This document shows, one piece after another, positions 32,306 through 41,712 of a stretch of 64,000 nucleotides of DNA (position 1 is the first letter of the stretch; each line of letters begins with the position of its first letter). Under the pieces are notes generated by a model that searched no databases, was not told the origin of the DNA, and worked only from the letters and a program-made list of their open reading frames with translations. Position numbers and translations under genes: made by a program. The stretch spans positions 186,001 to 250,000 of the forward strand of contig NZ_FXTD01000003.1 of assembly GCF_900182635.1 (NCBI RefSeq), written 5' to 3'. Origin of the DNA: Halorubrum cibi. GTDB lineage: Archaea > Halobacteriota > Halobacteria > Halobacteriales > Haloferacaceae.

Positions 32306-34444
32306 TCACTTCCCGCCGAACCGGACGGACGTCCCTTCGTCACGCGACGTCGACCGCTCCGCGATCGACCGGCGGGCAGACCGTCGCACGTCGGCCTCGC
32401 CGATCCCGTCGCGCTCGAAGACGATCGCGCCGTTGAGGTCGACGACGCTGTCGGGCTCGGGGATCAGATCGAGGATCTCGGCGGTCGACAGCGGTCGCGG
32501 CCCCTCGCGGTCCGCGCCGATGAGCTCCGGGACGGTGTCCGCCCACTCGAAGAGTGGATGGTACTCCGTTCCGACCCGAGCGTCGACCGACGGGAGCGAC
32601 CGCCACGAAACGGCGTGTTCCGTCTCGGAGACGGACCGTACCCGGACCAGCCCCTGTGCGCCCGCCCGTTCCGGCGTGACCGCGATGGCCGACGGATCCC
32701 CGGCGAGACGGACGCCCGCGATCTCGCGGACCCGCGCGAGCGCGACGCTCGCCGCGAGCGGCGTCGCGGTCGCGAGCAGCCCGACGAGCGTCCGGATCCG
32801 GGTCGCTCCGAGCGCGCCGTCGACGGCGATCGACCCGAGCGACCCGACCTCCACCGACGCGGCGGCCGGCGCGACGCGACCGGCGTGCTCGAACGCCGTC
32901 GTCGTCGGCACGGTCTCGAGATCCGCGACGTCGACGACGCCGTCGGCGCAGGCGACGCGGCTCCCGTCGGTCGGGAGCGAACACAGACACAGGCCGACGC
33001 CCGGGTCGGCGAGCAGACCGCGGAACTCCTCGCGAGTCGGGCGGACGGCCGCCTCCCACGCGTCGACGCCGTCGGGCGGCTCCGGCTCCGTCATGGCCCG
33101 CTCGATGACTCGGGCTCGCTCGTCCGAGTCCGCCACGAACGCCACCCGGAGGTCGCCCTTCGTCGGTCGGGATCGGGAGAGGCCGTTCTCGTACGCGGCG
33201 ACGCTCAGGGCGGCGGTACCGGAGGGGAGCGGGGCGTCGTCCGGGCTCGGCGTTCCCTCCGCGATCGCGAGCGACGGCGAGGTCGCCACCGCGACCGGTG
33301 AATCGGAGACCGCCGTACGTCCCCGGTCGCCGGATCCCGACCTCGGTTCCGTCGTCGCCGGCGATCCGCGAACCCGGATCGGCGCGAGCAGATGCGCGAG
33401 GTGGCCGAGCAGTTCCATCCCGGACGGTCCCGGTCGGAGGACCGCCGTCGTCGGCCAGTCCGGGAGATACGGATCGACGGTCTCCGGGTCGACCTCGAGG
33501 TACTCCATCAGTCGGTCGCTCATCGAGCGGTCGGCCAGGCCCGGCGGGTAGAACGGTAGCTCCCCGCCGACCGCCTCGTACTCGTACCGCTCGGAGGGGA
33601 CGTACCCCTCCGTCCGCGCCAGCGAGTCCAGAAACAGCGTCGTCCCGAGGATCTCCGAGACCCGGCGTTCGAGCGCGACCCCCTCGGTCGGCAGCGGTTC
33701 GACGTACCCGGTCTCGAGCCGAAGCGCCGGATCCGCGCCGGCGACGACGGTCGCGCCGAGGTAGTACGCCAGCGGCGCGACCCGGTAGACGTCCGCGTAC
33801 GTCGCCGGAACCGCGATCTCGACCCCAGTGTCGGGCGTCTCGAGGGGCGCGGGGATCTCGAGTTCGTCTCCGCGCGCGATTCGGGGCGGGTACCCGCGGA
33901 GCGTCGGCCAGGACCGCTCCGGCGACGGCTCGGCGATCGACGAGCCGAGCGCCGACACCGCCGTCATCAGCGCGTGCGGGTCGTCGGGGACCGTCATCGT
34001 CGCCTCCGGGCGGGTGTGAAGCGACCGCCCGCCGACGGTCACGGTCGTCGGTCCGTCGAACTCGATCTCGACGGCCCCGCCGTCGGCCATCCCGGTCGCC
34101 GAGACCTCGACGTCGACCGCGCGGACGAACGCCTTCGTCACCCCGACGACGTCGAAGCAGTAGGACCCGCGCGGAAGCGTGAGGTCGTCGGAGAGTTCGG
34201 CGACGAACTCCCCACCCGACTCGCGGACGCTCACCGTCGCGTACTTCGGGATCGACACCGACTCGGCCTCGAGGCTCACCGCCCGGTCGACGGGGAGCGC
34301 GAACAGGTCGACGAGCGCGGGCCGCGGGTCCGGCTCCCGGTCGAACCGGAGCGCGAGCCGTTCGTCCTCGAGCGCGTCGCGGACGTACAGCGTCTCGCCC
34401 GCCATCTCGAAGGTCACCCGCCGACCGTCGTCCGAGCCAGTCAT
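32306..34444 (-). CDS. Large haloarchaeal protein with degenerate CHAT-like C-terminal module
   Basis: A 712-aa protein with start at 34444 (MTGSDDGRRVTFEMAGETLY). The N-terminus is beta-rich (about 1-160). A middle alpha/beta region (200-360) contains VAPLAYYLGATVVAGADP and LFLDSLARTEGY, patterns I associate with haloarchaeal CHAT-type proteins. After a disordered linker (360-425), residues 430-690 look like a CHAT peptidase fold: LRVAFVADSDERA, then a GLCLCSLPTDGSRVACADGVVDVADLE segment and LGATRIRTLVGLLATATPL. CHAT proteases need a His (usually GH after a strand) and a Cys; here those places read CSL and EHAGR, so catalysis is probably lost. Function unknown. Confidence 0.55.
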   Translation of the reverse strand: MTGSDDGRRVTFEMAGETLYVRDALEDERLALRFDREPDPRPALVDLFALPVDRAVSLEAESVSIPKYATVSVRESGGEFVAELSDDLTLPRGSYCFDVVGVTKAFVRAVDVEVSATGMADGGAVEIEFDGPTTVTVGGRSLHTRPEATMTVPDDPHALMTAVSALGSSIAEPSPERSWPTLRGYPPRIARGDELEIPAPLETPDTGVEIAVPATYADVYRVAPLAYYLGATVVAGADPALRLETGYVEPLPTEGVALERRVSEILGTTLFLDSLARTEGYVPSERYEYEAVGGELPFYPPGLADRSMSDRLMEYLEVDPETVDPYLPDWPTTAVLRPGPSGMELLGHLAHLLAPIRVRGSPATTEPRSGSGDRGRTAVSDSPVAVATSPSLAIAEGTPSPDDAPLPSGTAALSVAAYENGLSRSRPTKGDLRVAFVADSDERARVIERAMTEPEPPDGVDAWEAAVRPTREEFRGLLADPGVGLCLCSLPTDGSRVACADGVVDVADLETVPTTTAFEHAGRVAPAAASVEVGSLGSIAVDGALGATRIRTLVGLLATATPLAASVALARVREIAGVRLAGDPSAIAVTPERAGAQGLVRVRSVSETEHAVSWRSLPSVDARVGTEYHPLFEWADTVPELIGADREGPRPLSTAEILDLIPEPDSVVDLNGAIVFERDGIGEADVRRSARRSIAERSTSRDEGTSVRFGGK

Positions 34445-34570
34445 CGAACGCGAGACTCGCGCGACGCGTATGACGCTGTCGGTCGATCCGGGGTCGCGAG
34501 TTCGCGACGATCGGACTCGCCTCCCGGACCCGGGCGGAACGCTTTTTCTCGGTGCCCGACCAGCGATGGC

Positions 34571-35617
34571 ATGGACGCGTCCGTCGAGACGGCCCTCGCC
34601 GCCGCCTTCCCGGACCGATCGGTCGAAGAACTCGTCGACGTCGGCCCCTCCTGGAACGGCGGCAACGAGACCGTCGGCGTCGATTTCACCGACGGCGGCC
34701 GCGCGTACCTCAAGGTCGCGCTCGACGGCGACGGGAGCCGGATCGCCCGCGAACGCGCCGTTCTGGAGTACGTCTCCACGCGACGACCGATCCCGGTTCC
34801 AGCGGTCGTCGCCGCCGATCCGAACGCGCAGGTACCGTACCTCGCGACCGCGCCGGCCCCGGGACGTGACCTCCACGAGGTCCTCGAGGAAGCGGACGAC
34901 GACCGACGCGAGGCGCTGTCGTATCGCGTCGGCGAGACGCTCGCGATCCTCCACGCGGAGCGGTTCGAGAACCACGGCGAGATCCGTGGAGGAGGTGGGG
35001 ACGCGGGGGGTTCCGGGGATCCTCCCGAACTCGACGTGGCGACGGCCTCGTGGACCGACACGCTGCTCTCGACGATCGAGTACACCCGCGAGATCGGCAC
35101 GACCGATCGGCTCGCCCGCCACTTCGACGCCGTCATCGACTGTGTCGAGTCGAACCGGGCGCTCCTCGACGTCGCCCCCGCGGCGCTGCTCCACGGCGAT
35201 ATCGCGCCGCCGAACGCGTTCCTCGCGGAGGACGACGGCGGCGCGGCGAGTGCGGCGGCTGCGGCCGGCGCGGCCGGCGCGGCCGGCGATCCCGGTGTGG
35301 GCCTTCTCGACTGGGAGCTCGCGCACGTCGGGGACCCCGCCCGCGACCTGGTCCGCGCGCGCGACCAGCTCTGTAACGGCTTCGACTACGAGGGCCCGGA
35401 ACGGTTCGGCGAGGCGGTGTACCGAGGGTACCGCGACCGCGCCGGCGACCTCCCCGAGGGGTTCACGGAGCGACGCCCCGTCTACCGGGTGGTCCGCGTC
35501 CTCGGACGCTCGGGCTTTCTCGACCAGTGGGTCACGTACCTCGACGAGCCGATGGGCGACCTCGTCGAGCGGATCGACGCGGAGCTGGACGCGCGGCTCG
35601 CGGCGGCAGGTGAGTAG
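34571..35617 (+). CDS. Aminoglycoside phosphotransferase-family kinase
   Basis: A 348-aa protein of the APH/choline-kinase fold. The catalytic loop is LLHGDIAPPNAFL (HGDxxxxN) and the metal-binding aspartate is in LLDWELAHVGDPARDL. The N-lobe shows RAYLKVALDG with the ATP-binding lysine and an ERAVLEYV helix. Two low-complexity insertions are odd: a Gly-rich one (GGGGDAGGSGDPP) and an Ala/Gly stretch just before the DWE motif (35240-35290). The substrate is unknown; sugars, amines and antibiotics are all used by this family. It is divergent from the CHAT-like gene, 126 nt apart. Confidence 0.82.
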   Translation: MDASVETALAAAFPDRSVEELVDVGPSWNGGNETVGVDFTDGGRAYLKVALDGDGSRIARERAVLEYVSTRRPIPVPAVVAADPNAQVPYLATAPAPGRDLHEVLEEADDDRREALSYRVGETLAILHAERFENHGEIRGGGGDAGGSGDPPELDVATASWTDTLLSTIEYTREIGTTDRLARHFDAVIDCVESNRALLDVAPAALLHGDIAPPNAFLAEDDGGAASAAAAAGAAGAAGDPGVGLLDWELAHVGDPARDLVRARDQLCNGFDYEGPERFGEAVYRGYRDRAGDLPEGFTERRPVYRVVRVLGRSGFLDQWVTYLDEPMGDLVERIDAELDARLAAAGE

Positions 35618-35823
35618 TATACCACGTCTCGGTGACCCCCTCTCCGGTATGTCGAACGAAATCCACAGGATTCACGCGGCGATCACGACCGTGACCGCTC
35701 ATGTCGTCCCGCGGTTCGTTCGCCGTGGACGACTCGCATCGCAGTTTCGATCCGCAATCGTCACACCCGCCGCGTCCGAATCGGGGGTATGAGCAGTCAG
35801 ATCTCGCAGCGGGGGGCCGTCAC

Positions 35824-36411
35824 GTGAATCGACGTCGCGCGGACACGGTCGTCGGCGTGTTCCTCGGGTTCGTCCTCTCGGCCGGCGGGGCGCTCGGTTG
35901 GCGGGCCTATCGACGACGTCGCGCCTTCGAGCAGTCGATGGGTTCGATGATGGATTCGTCCATGGGGACGATGCACGGACCGGACCCACTCTGGTACGCG
36001 GTTGGAACCCTGCTGGTTGCGGGCGGTATCGGCGGCGTCTATCTCGCGGTTCGAGGAGAGCTCACCGACTCGGAAGCGACCGACTCGGCGGAGCGTATCG
36101 GTCCCGATCCGACGTCGACGGAGACGACTGCGTCGATGGATGGCGAGGACTCACGAGCGAAGTCGCTCGATCCCGAATCGGACCCGCGGGCGCGCGTTCT
36201 CGATCTCTTGCCGGATGACGAACGACGCGTCCTCGAGCCCGTCCTGGACTCCCCCGGTATCACACAGATCGAACTCCGGGACCGGTCCGATTTCTCGAAG
36301 AGTAAGGTGAGTCAGACCGTGAGTTCACTCGAAAAGCGTGGGCTGCTGTACCGAGAACGACAGGGCCGGACCTACCGCGTGTATCCGAGTGAGGACCTTC
36401 AACAGCAGTAG
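35824..36411 (+). CDS. Membrane-anchored winged-helix protein with Met-rich loop
   Basis: A 195-aa protein, start at GTG 35824 (VNRRRADTVVGVFLGF). Two membrane helices (about 9-26 and 57-76) enclose a loop with RAYRRRRAFEQ then SMGSMMDSSMGTMHG, holding five methionines and one histidine in 13 residues. After an acidic linker, residues 123-190 form a winged helix (LDSPGITQIELRDRSDFSKSK, then SQTVSSLEKRGLLYRERQG and YRVYP) like MarR/DUF7343. If the tail is cytoplasmic, the Met-rich loop faces outside and could bind copper or another soft metal, but the loop's arginines favour the inside, so topology is uncertain. An in-frame ATG at 35701 would add 41 residues. Confidence 0.72.
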   Translation: MNRRRADTVVGVFLGFVLSAGGALGWRAYRRRRAFEQSMGSMMDSSMGTMHGPDPLWYAVGTLLVAGGIGGVYLAVRGELTDSEATDSAERIGPDPTSTETTASMDGEDSRAKSLDPESDPRARVLDLLPDDERRVLEPVLDSPGITQIELRDRSDFSKSKVSQTVSSLEKRGLLYRERQGRTYRVYPSEDLQQQ

Positions 36412-36445
36412 CCGAGACGACGGCCGCCAGCTGTTGGACACCCGT

Positions 36446-36463
36446 CCTCTCGAATTCGAGAGG
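36446..36463. promoter_or_regulatory. 18-bp perfect palindrome, candidate operator
   Basis: CCTCTCGAATTCGAGAGG reads the same on both strands. It lies 35 nt after the stop of the winged-helix gene and 129 nt before the secreted Met/His-rich protein. Length and perfect symmetry point to a dimeric protein-binding site or a strong cruciform. Confidence 0.55.
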
Positions 36464-36486
36464 TATGAACGATCTCCGTGGAACGA

Positions 36487-36531
36487 AACGGTTAGAAGAG
36501 GCCATAGACGTTCTAGAACGGTCTAATCGTT
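36487..36531. promoter_or_regulatory. Nested inverted repeats upstream of the secreted protein
   Basis: AACGGTTAGA (36487-36496) and TCTAATCGTT (36522-36531) are reverse complements with one mismatch. Between them CGTTCTAGAACG (36509-36520) is a perfect 12-bp palindrome. The block is AT-rich relative to its surroundings, and ends 61 nt before the ATG at 36592, a fitting place for an operator. Confidence 0.5.
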
Positions 36532-36591
36532 GAGTTTTCACCCTCGGAGATAACCCCGAACCCACCGTATGACTACCTGAGGCGAAAGACG

Positions 36592-36909
36592 ATGACCAAC
36601 CGAAACCTCGGACGATGGCTGCTGGTGGCGCTCGCGATCGTCGGCCTCGCGTTCGCCGCCCCGGTAGTTAGCGCACACGGTGACGACCCGGCCCAGGGGA
36701 ACGAGACGGCAGCTGAAGGGATGCCAGTCGATGGTGATACGACGGACTGGGCGGCCTGGATGGACGGTCACATGACCGACCACATGGGACCGGATGCCGT
36801 TGACGAGATGGAATCGCACATGGGTGTGACTGTCGATGAAACGGCCCAGGACATGACGGAGGACGATCACACCACGGTCGGGATGTACGGACGGAGGCAC
36901 GGTTGCTAA
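36592..36909 (+). CDS. Secreted Met/His-rich small protein
   Basis: A 105-aa protein with a Sec-type signal (MTNRNLGRWLLVALAIVGLA, cleavage likely after VSA at residue 28). The mature part is acidic and unusually rich in Met and His in a spaced pattern (M57, H60, M61, H64, M65, M73, H76, M77, M88, H93, M98, H103, and C105 at the very end). This looks like a soft-metal-binding peptide, perhaps for copper, and similar short proteins occur beside SHOCT proteins in other haloarchaea. It is flanked by the Met-rich winged-helix gene upstream and the SHOCT gene 64 nt downstream. Confidence 0.72.
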   Translation: MTNRNLGRWLLVALAIVGLAFAAPVVSAHGDDPAQGNETAAEGMPVDGDTTDWAAWMDGHMTDHMGPDAVDEMESHMGVTVDETAQDMTEDDHTTVGMYGRRHGC

Positions 36910-36973
36910 CGATCCCCGTCCGGGACACTCGTTCGGCACGACAGACTCACGAACCATCCAACAAACGATCACA

Positions 36974-37327
36974 ATGACACACGACACCAACGCTCTCGAA
37001 CGGACGACTCGTCGAATCGTGATGCTCGGCGTTCCGCTGCTGGTTACAGCAACGGGTACCGCTGCCGCTCACGGCGGCGGTGGCTACGGCGGCGGTATGA
37101 TGGGCGGCGGTTGGGGGCTCTTCGGCGGTGGAATGGGCCTCTGGGGACTCCTCTGGATGGGACTCCTGATCGCCGTCCCGCTCTTCCTCGCCCGCTCGCT
37201 CCTTGATCGAGCGTCTAGAGAGGAGGAGACACGAGCGCCATCGGTGCTTCGTGAGCGCTACGCCCGCGGTGAGCTCACCGACGAGGAGTTCGAACACCGA
37301 CGGGAACGGCTCGAACGGTCCGAATGA
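36974..37327 (+). CDS. SHOCT-domain membrane protein
   Basis: A 117-aa protein. A first hydrophobic segment (about 16-32) is followed by a Gly/Met/Trp-rich stretch (GGGGYGGGMMGGGWGLFGGG) and a second helix (about 56-75). Residues 89-115 form a SHOCT domain (SVLRERYARGELTDEEFEHR), a short C-terminal helical pair found on many membrane proteins. The glycine-rich segment with methionines may cross or lie at the membrane. It follows the secreted Met/His-rich gene by 64 nt and is probably in the same transcript. Confidence 0.82.
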   Translation: MTHDTNALERTTRRIVMLGVPLLVTATGTAAAHGGGGYGGGMMGGGWGLFGGGMGLWGLLWMGLLIAVPLFLARSLLDRASREEETRAPSVLRERYARGELTDEEFEHRRERLERSE

Positions 37328-37391
37328 ACGATCCGGAGGGGTGACCCGAGGAGCCGATCCGGCTACTGGAAAGGGGTGGCCCCTCTCCTCG

Positions 37392-38192
37392 TTACTCCCG
37401 GTTCCACGCCGCGTCGTCGGGGTCGATCGTCCGCCCACCGCCGGCCAGCCCGTCGATCTCGGCGAGGTCGTCCGCAGAGAGGTCGACCTCCGGCGCCGCG
37501 AGGTTCTCCGTCACGTGGTCCCCGGTCGACTTCGGGATCGGGACCACGTCGCGGGCGAGCGCCCACGAGAGCGCGACGACCGCCGTCGAGGTCCCGTTCC
37601 GCTCCGCCACCGCCGCGAGCGTCGGGTCATCGAGCAGCTCACCCCTCGCGAGCGGCGAGTACCCCACGAGGTGGTGATCGAACTCGGCGGCCAGCTCCCG
37701 GAGTTCGGGCTGCTGGAACCGCGGGTGACACTCGACCTGGTGGGCCGCGATCGGCGACTCGAGGATCTCGCGAGCCTCCCGGAGCAGGTCGGGGGTGAAG
37801 TTGGAGACGGCGACGTGGTCGGTGACGCCCTCCTCACGGAGCTCGTCGAAGACCGGAAGGGTCGCCTCGGGGTCGTACGCCTTCGTGGGCCAGTGGACGT
37901 ACAGGAGATCGACGCGGTCGAGTCCCAGCCGGTCGAGGCTCTCGCGGGCCGTCTCGCGGGCGTCCGCGGGCGCGAGATTCGTCGGGTGGATCTTGGTGGC
38001 GACGACGACCTCGTCGCGGTCGACGTCGGCCCTCGCGATCCCCTCGCCGACCGCGGTCTCGTTGTCGTACATCTGTGCGGTGTCGACGTGGCGGTAGCCG
38101 GCCTCCAGCGCGGTCACGACGCTCTCCGTACACTCCGCGGGGTCGTCGAGACCGGACGTGCCGAGTCCGAGTCCGAGGTCGATCGGTGGCAT
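37392..38192 (-). CDS. Aldo/keto reductase
   Basis: A 266-aa NADPH-dependent oxidoreductase. The catalytic tetrad is visible: Asp and Tyr in DTAQMYDNE, Lys in ATKIHP and His in YVHWP. VSNFTPDLL and VECHPRFQQPEL are family landmarks, and IPKSTGDHVTEN contains the cofactor-binding lysine and serine. The ATG at 38192 (MPPIDLGLG) was chosen over an earlier GTG. The carbonyl substrate is unknown. It is divergent from the Cys-rich regulator, with an inverted repeat between them at 38233-38250. Confidence 0.9.
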   Translation of the reverse strand: MPPIDLGLGLGTSGLDDPAECTESVVTALEAGYRHVDTAQMYDNETAVGEGIARADVDRDEVVVATKIHPTNLAPADARETARESLDRLGLDRVDLLYVHWPTKAYDPEATLPVFDELREEGVTDHVAVSNFTPDLLREAREILESPIAAHQVECHPRFQQPELRELAAEFDHHLVGYSPLARGELLDDPTLAAVAERNGTSTAVVALSWALARDVVPIPKSTGDHVTENLAAPEVDLSADDLAEIDGLAGGGRTIDPDDAAWNRE

Positions 38193-38338: not shown

Positions 38339-39130
38339 ATGACCGACGGGATCCACGTTCAACTGGCGGTCTCCGCCTGCGAGGGCTGTCCCGTGGCGGC
38401 GCTCTCCGGGTCGACCGAGGTGGAGGACCTCCGCGTCGACCCCGTCGACGACACGGTCGAGTTCGTCGCCTCAGAACCGCCCGACGACCCGCCGTCGGTC
38501 CTGGAGTTCGTCGAGTTCGGCGGCCGCGCGCACGGTCGATACGAGATCACCCACGACGCGAACGAACACGCGCGTCCGGCGACCGACGGGGGGCTCGCGG
38601 TCGGGGCGGCGACCGACGGAGTGACCGCGCCGACCGACGCGGAGGCGGTCGCGAGCGTCGGCAACGCGACGGGCGGGGACGATGCCGCCGGCGACGGCGT
38701 CTGTGCCGGCTGCTCGTGCGGGGGACTCACGGCCGCGTTCGCGGACTTTCCCGTGTCGCCGCGCGAGACGCGAATGGACGACGGCGAGCTCCTCGTCTCG
38801 TTCGTCCTGGGCGGACACGAGGAGCTCGAGTCGGTCGTCGACGGCTTCGAGGACGCGGGCCTCGACGTCGAACTTCGCAGACTCCTCGTCGACCGGTGTC
38901 CCGAGGACGAGCGGTGTGACGTCGTCCCCGTCGACCTCACCGGCGTGACCGACCGGCAGGCCGAGGTGGCCGCCGCCGCCGCCGAGCACGGCTACTTCGA
39001 GCCCGACGGCGCGTCCGCGGCCGACCTCGCCGACGAGCTCGGTATCGCGAAGTCGACCGTCTCAGAACACCTCCGGATCGTGACGGCGTCGCTCTTCTCG
39101 CAGATCTTCGCGGACGGGCAGGATACTTAA
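38339..39130 (+). CDS. Cys-rich bacterio-opsin-activator-type regulator (DmsR/NarO-like)
   Basis: A 263-aa regulator starting at the ATG at 38339. The N-terminal half has cysteine groups CEGCP (residues 14-17) and CAGCSCGG (about 122-127) plus RCPEDERC further on, which could bind a redox-sensitive Fe-S cluster or zinc. The C-terminus is an HTH_10 (bacterio-opsin activator) domain: LTGVTDRQAEVAAAAAEHGYFEP, then SAADLADELGIAKSTVSEHLR. Haloarchaeal regulators of this Cys-rich type (DmsR, NarO) switch on anaerobic respiration genes. Its position immediately upstream of the nos genes supports control of N2O reduction. Confidence 0.85.
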   Translation: MTDGIHVQLAVSACEGCPVAALSGSTEVEDLRVDPVDDTVEFVASEPPDDPPSVLEFVEFGGRAHGRYEITHDANEHARPATDGGLAVGAATDGVTAPTDAEAVASVGNATGGDDAAGDGVCAGCSCGGLTAAFADFPVSPRETRMDDGELLVSFVLGGHEELESVVDGFEDAGLDVELRRLLVDRCPEDERCDVVPVDLTGVTDRQAEVAAAAAEHGYFEPDGASAADLADELGIAKSTVSEHLRIVTASLFSQIFADGQDT

Positions 39131-39221: not shown

Positions 39222-39623
39222 ATGACCCAGTGGACACAGCTCGGACCGCGGGAACGCGAGATCCTCGCCGTCCTGCGGCGCGCCGACGCCCCCCTCACGG
39301 CACGCGACCTGCTCGACGCGGTACGTCGCCGCGGCGACGAGGTCGCGTACACGACCGTCAAGCGGACGGTCGACCGGCTGGTCGAGAAGGGGCTCGTCGA
39401 GCGCGACGTCGAGACGCACCGCGGGACGACCCGCCACCGGTACCGCTTCGACGTCGAGGTCGCCCGAGATCGCCTCCTACCGGCGTTCGCCGCCGAGGTA
39501 CGGGAGGTGCTCGGCGAGCCGGCGGCGGAGCGGCTCGCCCGCGCGGTCCGAACGGAACGCGACGGCGACGACGGCGGAGACGCCGACGTCGCCGGAGCCC
39601 GACCACGACACGATGACTACTGA
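39222..39623 (+). CDS. BlaI/MecI-like winged-helix regulator
   Basis: A 133-aa DNA-binding protein. Residues 1-80 match the BlaI/MecI/CopY winged helix: LGPREREILAVLRRADAPLTARDLLDAV, the recognition helix in TTVKRTVDRLVEKGLVERD, and the wing RGTTRHRYRF. The copper-binding Cys motif of CopY is absent, so metal sensing is not supported by sequence. The C-terminus is acidic and disordered. Its reading frame overlaps the nosZ start by 11 nt, indicating coupled expression; it may be an autoregulator of the nos operon. Confidence 0.82.
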   Translation: MTQWTQLGPREREILAVLRRADAPLTARDLLDAVRRRGDEVAYTTVKRTVDRLVEKGLVERDVETHRGTTRHRYRFDVEVARDRLLPAFAAEVREVLGEPAAERLARAVRTERDGDDGGDADVAGARPRHDDY

Positions 39624-41712
39624 CCCGAATCCCACCGACGATCGGGAGGCACGGAGCGACGAACAGCGCGACGACGCCGCGGGGACCGCCTCCGCGACCG
39701 AGGACGGGGCGGCCGAGGAGAGACGGACCGACGAGGGATCGACCGACGACGGTCCCGAGATCGTCGACGGGCGCACCGTCGAACACCTGATCACCGACCA
39801 CGAGCGCGACATCGCCGCGACCGCGGAGGGGACCGACGCCACGGCCGCCCGGCGGCCCAACCTCGACCTCCCGCGGCTGGAGCTCGGCCGACGCGACTTC
39901 ATGAAGGCCGGGGCCGCGGTGGGCGCGATGACGGGACTCGCGGGCTGTACGAGCGTCCTCTCGGACGAGGGGAACGGCGGAGGCGGCTCCTCGGGCGCGA
40001 GCGGCGAGCACTCGGTCGCCCCGGGCGAACACGACGAGTACTACGGCTTCCTCAGCGGGGGTCACACCGGCGAGATCCGGGTCGTCGGGATCCCCTCGAT
40101 GCGCGAGCTCATGCGGATCCCGGTGTTCCAGGCCGAGAGCGCCCGCGGGTTCGGTCACGACGCGAAGTCGAGCGAGATCCTGGAGGAGGGCGGCGGCTAC
40201 ACGTGGGGTGACACCCACCACCCGCGCGTCTCACAGACCGACAACGACTACGACGGCCGCTGGCTGTTCGTCAACGACAAGGCGAACGGGCGGATGGCCC
40301 GAGTCGACCTCGAGTACTTCGAGACGGACGCGATCACGAACGTCCCCAACAGCCAGGCCGTCCACGGCGCGTGTATGCAGCTTCCCGACACGCAGCTCGT
40401 CTTTGGCGTCGGGGAGTTCCGCGTGCCGATGCCCAACGACGGTCGCGACGTGGACGACCCCGACGCGTACGGCTCCGTCCTCACCGCCATCGACCCCGAG
40501 ACGATGGACGTTGAGTGGCAGGTCGAGGTCGACGGCAACATGGACAACGGCGACGGCGGCAAGGAGGGACGCTGGTTCTTCGCGACCGGCTACAACAGCG
40601 AGGAGGGCGTCACCCAGGGGGAGATGACCCGATCGGACCGCGACTACGTGAAGGCGTTTGACATCCCCGCGATCTGGGACGCCGTCGAGGCCGGGAACTA
40701 CGAGGAGATAAGCGGCGTGCCGGTCGTCGACGGCACCATGGACAGTTCGCTCAACGAGGGCGACCGTCCGGTCGTCCGGTACGTCCCGACGCCGAAGAGC
40801 CCCCACGGGGTCAGCGTCACGCCCGACGGGAACTACGCGATCGCCTCCGGCAAGCTCGACCCGACCTGTACGGTCATCGGCGTCGACGAGATCGCCGAGG
40901 TCGACGACCCGGCGGACGCGATCCTCGGGCAGCCGCGGGTCGGGATGGGGCCGCTCCACACCGCCTACGACGACCGCGGCCACGCGTACACGACGCTGTT
41001 CATCGACTCGCAGGTCGTCAAGTGGGACTACGAGGCGGCGGTGGAGGCCGAGGCCGGCTCCGAGGAGCCGATCGTGGAAAAACACGACGTCCACTACAAC
41101 CCCGGCCACCTCATCGCGAGCGAGTCGTACACGGCGTCGCCGCAGGGCGACTACTTGGTGTCTCTGAACAAGCTCTCGAAGGACCGGTTCCTCCCGGTCG
41201 GCCCGATCCATCCCGAGAACGACCAGATGTTCTACATCGGCGACGACGACGCCGGGATGGAGCTGGTCAAGGACAAGCCGTCGTACCCCGAGCCGCACGA
41301 CGCGAGCATCGTCCACCGGGACAAGATCGAGCCGGCGAAGACGTGGGATCCCGACGACTACGACCTCGATTTCGTCCCCGAGGGCGAGGAGTCCTTCGAG
41401 CGGGTCGACGACAGCACCGTCGAGATCGAGATGTGGGCGCGCCGCAACGAGTACGCCTTCCCCGAGGTCACGGTCCGGGAGGGCGACGAGGTCACGATCC
41501 GGATATCCAACGTCGAGACCACGAGCGACGTGATCCACTCGATCGCGATCCCGGAGTACGACATCAACCTCGCGTTGGCGCCCCAGGACACCCGTGAGGT
41601 GACGTTCACCGCGGACGAGCCCGGCGTGTACTGGGCGTACTGCGCGTACTTCTGTAGCGCGCTCCACCTCGAGATGCGCTCGCGGATCCTCGTGGAGCCG
41701 CGCGACGGCTGA
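39613..41712 (+). CDS. nosZ: Nitrous-oxide reductase
   Basis: Reduces N2O to N2 on the outer face of the membrane, the last step of denitrification. The 699-aa protein has all seven CuZ histidine motifs: DTHHP, AVHGAC, SPHGVS, GPLHT, NPGHL and EPHDA. The CuA domain near the C-terminus has DVIHSI and CAYFCSALHLEM (Cys, Cys, His, Met). Where well-studied bacterial enzymes have Trp between the cysteines, this one has Tyr. A Tat signal (GRRDFMKAG, RR at 93-94) with lipobox GLAGC (C112) is unusually preceded by about 90 acidic residues. So it is probably a membrane-anchored lipoprotein. Confidence 0.96.
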   Translation: MTTDPNPTDDREARSDEQRDDAAGTASATEDGAAEERRTDEGSTDDGPEIVDGRTVEHLITDHERDIAATAEGTDATAARRPNLDLPRLELGRRDFMKAGAAVGAMTGLAGCTSVLSDEGNGGGGSSGASGEHSVAPGEHDEYYGFLSGGHTGEIRVVGIPSMRELMRIPVFQAESARGFGHDAKSSEILEEGGGYTWGDTHHPRVSQTDNDYDGRWLFVNDKANGRMARVDLEYFETDAITNVPNSQAVHGACMQLPDTQLVFGVGEFRVPMPNDGRDVDDPDAYGSVLTAIDPETMDVEWQVEVDGNMDNGDGGKEGRWFFATGYNSEEGVTQGEMTRSDRDYVKAFDIPAIWDAVEAGNYEEISGVPVVDGTMDSSLNEGDRPVVRYVPTPKSPHGVSVTPDGNYAIASGKLDPTCTVIGVDEIAEVDDPADAILGQPRVGMGPLHTAYDDRGHAYTTLFIDSQVVKWDYEAAVEAEAGSEEPIVEKHDVHYNPGHLIASESYTASPQGDYLVSLNKLSKDRFLPVGPIHPENDQMFYIGDDDAGMELVKDKPSYPEPHDASIVHRDKIEPAKTWDPDDYDLDFVPEGEESFERVDDSTVEIEMWARRNEYAFPEVTVREGDEVTIRISNVETTSDVIHSIAIPEYDINLALAPQDTREVTFTADEPGVYWAYCAYFCSALHLEMRSRILVEPRDG

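Follow-up and report, generated by a model that had tools for sequence, protein, structure and literature searches.

Small secreted proteins rich in Met and His, namely SilE and PcoE, belong to enterobacterial silver and copper resistance, where their genes are carried in mobile islands together with Cu/Ag ATPase and oxidase genes. On the regulatory side, MarR proteins of the classical kind are soluble, with the ligand bound where the two subunits of the dimer meet, TRASH regulators respond to copper in the cytoplasm, and CadC, ToxR and the archaeal ArnR are winged-helix proteins tethered to the membrane and working without a phosphorelay. Little is known, to our knowledge, of the means by which haloarchaea perceive copper or silver on the outer side of the membrane.

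The window considered here, i.e., the whole stretch of DNA analysed, covers 64,000 nucleotides of the genome of Halorubrum cibi, in which genes for a membrane-tethered regulator (REG), a secreted Met/His peptide and a SHOCT protein lie in one direction beside a nos cluster. An earlier note, made from the letters of this DNA, had singled out these three same-strand genes, and the open reading frames (ORFs) agree with it in their places. We judge it somewhat better than an even bet that these three genes form the core of a Cu/Ag-handling system of haloarchaea, which is carried about in plasmid islands and came to lie beside nos by insertion in one Halorubrum lineage, with REG acting as a repressor that senses metal through its loop.

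The regulator, the secreted peptide and the SHOCT protein

The coding features are, on the strand shown:
35824-36411, + strand: REG gene, GTG start, 195 aa
35938..35976, + strand: Met/His loop of REG, MGSMMDSSMGTMH, residues 39-51
36184..36402, + strand: winged-helix domain of REG, with the recognition helix region FSKSKVSQTV
36592..36909, + strand: gene of the secreted Met/His peptide, 105 aa, signal peptide 1-28
36974..37327, + strand: gene of the SHOCT protein, 117 aa, a Gly/Met-rich membrane protein with C-terminal SHOCT

According to the ORF, domain searches and a structural model, REG is composed of two transmembrane (TM) helices, a Met/His loop, a linker and a MarR-like wHTH. The winged-helix tail recognised at first reading is borne out in Pfam, where DUF7343 (1e-9, 38.2 bits, cut-off 27.6) exceeds its curated cut-off, as do MarR_2 (6e-9, 36.4 bits, cut-off 27) and MarR (25.1 bits, cut-off 24.6). 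In the AlphaFold2 model (mean pLDDT 69; about 80-90 in the winged helix), a helix (3-41), a loop (42-54) and a second helix (55-87) precede a disordered linker and the winged helix (121-193), for which the best Foldseek matches were HosA, MexR, SlyA and MarR (E down to 1e-4), i.e., a MarR-type fold. Among REG relatives, the recognition helix FSKSKVSQTV is almost unchanged in the family alignment, and a domain profile search of REG gave no match to the TRASH domain. Membership in the CopY/BlaI or TRASH metalloregulators is likewise not borne out by the CopY model, whose score was 13.9 bits for a cut-off of 122. A distinct conserved element, about CAAYTGKYACACC, stands upstream of REG genes (e.g., window 35765-35790, L003) and is not the peptide operator described below.

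The loop MGSMMDSSMGTMH does hold, as had been noticed, five Met and one His within 13 residues of a two-helix protein, and its relatives share the pattern MGSM(M)..SMG..HG. A 13-mer as rich in Met/His occurred in 0/173,177 among those called proteins of the fetched loci that scored higher, a comparison set with a threshold that REG itself does not reach, and the computed rarity together with conservation across the family rules out enrichment by chance. As the winged helix has to make contact with DNA, the two ends of such a two-helix protein would be cytoplasmic, from which we infer that the loop faces outside. An RRRR stretch beside the loop had been held against this orientation; it is genuine but present in few members, most relatives carrying QQQQ or QQRR at the same place, and, being unconserved, it is no proof of a cytoplasmic loop, so that the objection falls.

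For the peptide, the -3/-1 rule predicts a mature N-terminus at His29, and neither this residue nor the VSAH motif nor the C-terminal Cys varies across the family alignment. The signal peptide and terminal Cys of the original description stand, while its count of 12 Met/His needs correcting to 14 from His29, namely eight Met and six His besides the terminal Cys (binomial P about 2e-6), and this richness is kept across the family. For the window peptide, Pfam gave no match at E 0.1 and NCBIfam none that was meaningful, and other members show only weak, scattered matches in both collections. Membership in a known family was pursued through Pfam, NCBIfam and PDB sequence searches, which gave nothing useful; a hint of DUF2946 stayed below cut-off, and a structure search with the peptide model, itself of low confidence, was uninformative. 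The peptide thus appears, at the level of sequence, to represent an undescribed family lacking a Pfam or NCBIfam entry. The assignment of the third gene as a Gly/Met-rich SHOCT protein proved correct, PF09851 scoring 35.9 bits (5e-9), above its cut-off of 27.

Peptide promoter and proposed circuit

Upstream of the peptide gene, conservation spans about 140 bp and has an abrupt upstream edge:
36451..36591, + strand: peptide promoter and leader, with CGAATTCG, TGAACG, AACGGTTAGA, a TATA-like box, operator, leader and SD, conserved
36503..36524, + strand: TATA-like CATAGA, then operator CGTTCTAGAACG (36509-36520) and half-site GAACGGTCT

The core of this promoter is a TATA-like box followed by ACGTTCTCGAACGTTCTC, and the operator, with the consensus ACG.TCT.GAACG.TCTC, lies nearly always exactly 84 bp before the peptide start codon. 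In 1.05 Mb of fetched loci, the CGTTCNNGAACG palindrome occurs 54 times, of which 51 directly upstream of a peptide gene. Across 242 genomes, the 18-bp operator form was found 76 times (reversed control, 1), namely (i) upstream of a peptide gene in 47/76, at exactly 84 bp in 45/47, (ii) beside divergent REGs in 6/76, and (iii) elsewhere in 23/76. Plain CGTTCnnGAACG, with 46 sites in the own genome, was discarded as a specific genome-wide marker; specificity needs the longer TATA+operator form, which is present in this genome, at one mismatch or fewer, solely at the two peptide promoters. The leader is likewise conserved, both in length (84 bp in 45/47) and in the motifs GTTCACACCCA and ATAAC, and for this reason the leader RNA may play a role of its own.

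Regulator and peptide also occur together. REG is found in 77/242 haloarchaeal genomes and the peptide in 64/242, with 61 genomes holding both, 3 the peptide only, 16 REG only and 162 neither (p=3e-38). At divergent REG loci in which a Met-rich peptide was not detected, REG mostly has beside it another secreted His/Met peptide ending in Cys, and the genes of peptides that have become rich in His largely keep the promoter architecture. That the site and the recognition helix stay the same while the product varies is the trace that would be expected of a dedicated regulator in putative contact with its operator. The membrane-anchored REG therewith probably controls the gene of the secreted, presumptive metal-binding peptide, and the regulator's control over the peptide gene, put forward in the earlier note, appears, from operator and co-occurrence, to be the likeliest circuit. 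A protein other than REG could sit on the operator. The Met/His contents of loop and peptide correlate weakly (rho 0.36, p 0.05, uncorrected for relatedness), and such Met-versus-His covariation was set aside as weak support.

In the circuit that we propose, REG would be held in the membrane with the Met/His loop outside and the MarR-like winged helix inside. As long as extracellular Cu(I)/Ag(I) is not in surplus, it would occupy the CGTTCnnGAACG operator, which lies after the TATA-like box and before the start region, and block transcription. Metal on the loop would shift the helices, by which the DNA-binding dimer would be released or re-shaped; the peptide, with its Met, His and Cys, and the SHOCT protein would then be made, and may either buffer metal outside the cell or hand it to oxidase, cupredoxin and exporter partners.

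The sign of this control is suggested by the position of the best palindrome just downstream of the TATA-like box, which is a typical position of archaeal repressors and for which repression is preferred over activation; MarR relatives, moreover, are mostly repressors. The opposite polarity, whereby REG would be an activator at upstream GAACG half-sites, recruiting the transcription machinery when metal-bound, is an alternative, unlikely in our opinion though deserving to be kept in view, as a half-site GAACGnTC is present upstream of the TATA-like box too and some membrane-tethered regulators, such as CadC and ToxR, do activate.

Copper/silver islands and the insertion beside nos

Scanning bacterial and archaeal genomes for REG returned 80 haloarchaeal loci, many copies being plasmid-borne and annotated merely as MarR family regulators. 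The common island order is permease, REG, peptide, SHOCT, DUF302, SHOCT, thioredoxin and cupredoxin. Among the 59 loci with distinct REGs, the peptide is present in 46, SHOCT in 42, a permease of ArsP+YHS type in 34, a P1B-ATPase in 23, a cupredoxin in 14 and a multicopper oxidase (MCO) in 11, with ATPases of CPC/CPH type in 17. A Cu/Ag-type gene (P1B-ATPase, HMA, MCO, cupredoxin or TRASH) lies near REG in 38/59 of these loci, and none of these was seen within about 6 kb in 21/59. The most divergent REG relatives adjoin CopA/CopB-type ATPases, a TRASH regulator and DUF411. With their many Cu/Ag exporters and copper proteins, these neighbourhoods lend support to the notion of a metal-responsive unit. 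Genes were called by a mechanical procedure, in which some of the long ORFs (such as 32306-35326 on the minus strand) are spurious, and the conclusions use homologous families alone.

One version of the island is 98-100% identical in DNA over several kilobases (L005-L032, e.g., L008:1-12579) in Halorubrum, Halobellus, Haloplanus, Natrinema, Halosimplex, Halopenitus and other genera, an identity between genera that suggests very recent spread. At the left end of this widespread island (L005, L008 and similar loci), many of the P1B-type ATPases have an unusual CPG instead of the metal motif CPC/CPH, which weighs against the Cu/Ag reading. In the presence of silver, Haloferax alexandrinus induces copA and copZ, and likewise the genes of a COG0701 permease and of a SHOCT membrane protein (PMC10694973); if these belong to the present family, the response would agree with the proposed circuit.

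Beside nos, the trio lies within an inserted segment:
35607..37389, + strand: inserted cassette, boundaries within about 20 bp
35674..35700, + strand: decayed 3' tail of an island ArsP-type permease gene, aligning with the HDHDHDH-stop end in relatives

Six Halorubrum relatives have an empty site in the orthologous nos region, where their DNA runs parallel to that of the window as far as 35606 and again from about 37390-37398, with a short spacer between. Since the cassette opens with the decayed 3' end of the permease gene, it was cut from such an island; the only terminal repeat found is CCCCTCTCC, 9 bp long and directly repeated at 35637 and 37380, which may be due to chance. Besides this genome, the sister genome of Halorubrum aquaticum (L004/L085) has the nos-adjacent cassette, and the trio beside nos is, on these alignments, a recent lineage-specific insertion. 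The sole other nos-REG proximity in the survey, an independent one, was met in a Haloferax genome (L084:6000-14100), where REG and a gene for a SHOCT protein lie near the nos cluster, a metallo-beta-lactamase-fold gene stands between, and no Met/His peptide was found.

The own genome contains a second REG, 65% identical, on contig 12, in an island comprising an ArsP-type permease with YHS domain on the 5' side and, on the 3' side, a three-domain multicopper oxidase, peptide, SHOCT, DUF302, SHOCT, a heavy-metal-associated chaperone and P1B-ATPases. With this fuller copy at hand to do the job, the nos-linked one might be a decaying passenger deprived of present function. Its promoters are imperfect, CATAGA standing in place of TATA and the operator palindrome being broken in the sister genome, one conserved Met of the peptide is lost, and the peptide dN/dS exceeds 1, a value derived from only 7 differences; because of the poorer TATA-like box and the lost Met, nos-linked copies may be weaker. 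Yet all three ORFs are intact in both genomes, and dN/dS values of 0.31 for REG and 0.27 for SHOCT, drawn from few differences, suggest constraint, so that loss of function seems to us rather unlikely.

To a copper-supply unit for NosZ we give little credence, although the trio lies 2.3 kb upstream of nosZ and the Haloferax locus (L084) arrived independently at REG and SHOCT near nosZ. The supply of copper for N2O reduction suggested in the earlier note is, as a dedicated role, at odds with a recent insertion that leaves six empty sites, and REG lies within 6 kb of nosZ in just 3/32 genomes holding both (two independent events), nearly all other REG copies being unlinked to nos. As for the co-occurrence with nosZ looked for across haloarchaea, it holds within Halorubrum (counts 19/2/11/17, p=3e-4; nosZ in 19/21 REG genomes vs 11/28 without REG) and not elsewhere (odds ratio 1.37, p=0.40 among the surveyed haloarchaea outside this genus), the weak association over the whole class (OR 1.96, p=0.026) coming from Halorubrum; for nirK, it is weaker (p=0.012). 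Both REG and nosZ are scattered on the rpoB tree, and an independent-pairs test gave the same direction in 3-4/7 pairs, almost never the opposite, a number too small for significance; narG was unusable as a non-copper control, its model missing haloarchaeal NarG. As REG and nosZ are almost always unlinked in Halorubrum, they may be connected indirectly, by way of copper respiration or lifestyle, and a common way of life based on copper or denitrification would account for the co-occurrence no less well than copper supply. A co-evolved nos accessory unit is rejected in view of the empty site and the missing linkage.

Between trio and nosZ there are, besides, regulators already in place, i.e., a NarO/DmsR-like one (38339-39130) and, just after it, a BlaI/Penicillinase_R-like winged-helix gene (39222-39623) overlapping the nosZ start by 11 bp, both candidates for the real nos control. 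The called NosZ itself (39613-41712) carries, ahead of the twin-arginine signal, an acidic extension about 90 residues long; that of the Haloferax NosZ in L084 is shorter.

Equally improbable is that REG senses oxidants (e.g., hypochlorite) by methionine oxidation and that the peptide is sacrificed as a sink for the oxidant, a role that Met-rich peptides have in certain chlorine-stress regulons of bacteria, for however well the Met-rich loop and peptide, the thioredoxin, DoxX and rhodanese/sulfur genes of some islands and the precedent of bacterial methionine-rich peptides under sigma/anti-sigma control may fit, the divergent partner peptides are His-rich with hardly any Met, which suits metal rather than an oxidant sink, a crude scan found a methionine sulfoxide reductase motif in no locus, and the neighbours are copper exporters and copper enzymes.

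Significance and relation to described systems

The proposed Cu/Ag circuit would be compact, i.e., one regulator, one operator of fixed spacing and one peptide, in about a third of the surveyed haloarchaeal genomes; with it come an undescribed peptide family and a metal cassette caught moving beside a copper-enzyme cluster. More tentatively, and short of calling it likely, REG may be the first transmembrane one-component metalloregulator in archaea, whose outer Met/His loop would read Cu(I)/Ag(I) and switch the inner winged helix via two helices without a kinase, driving a dedicated, fast-evolving secreted peptide (Met- or His-rich, nearly always Cys-ending) from a strongly conserved promoter. 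The search of the literature, in open-access papers, found no description of the REG-peptide system, in agreement with the earlier note, which knew of none of the same form; the parts are of known kinds and their combination appears new.

REG resembles MarR/DUF7343 regulators by the sequence and predicted fold of its DNA-binding domain, and departs from the soluble MarR proteins in being tethered by two N-terminal TM helices with a Met/His loop predicted outside. A regulator like that of the CopR/TRASH and copA arrangement (S. solfataricus cop cluster, HVO_1752-like) sits in some REG islands; REG, devoid of a TRASH domain, would sense outside the membrane instead of in the cytoplasm. With CadC, ToxR and ArnR, it has in common a membrane-tethered winged helix free of phosphorelay, while these have another topology and sensor and no Met/His metal loop. 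As for SilE and PcoE, the haloarchaeal peptide is similarly small, secreted, Met/His-rich and placed in a mobile metal island with Cu/Ag ATPase and oxidase genes; it differs in having no sequence family match and a C-terminal Cys, and whereas SilE and PcoE are under two-component systems, it would be under a single membrane-tethered regulator.
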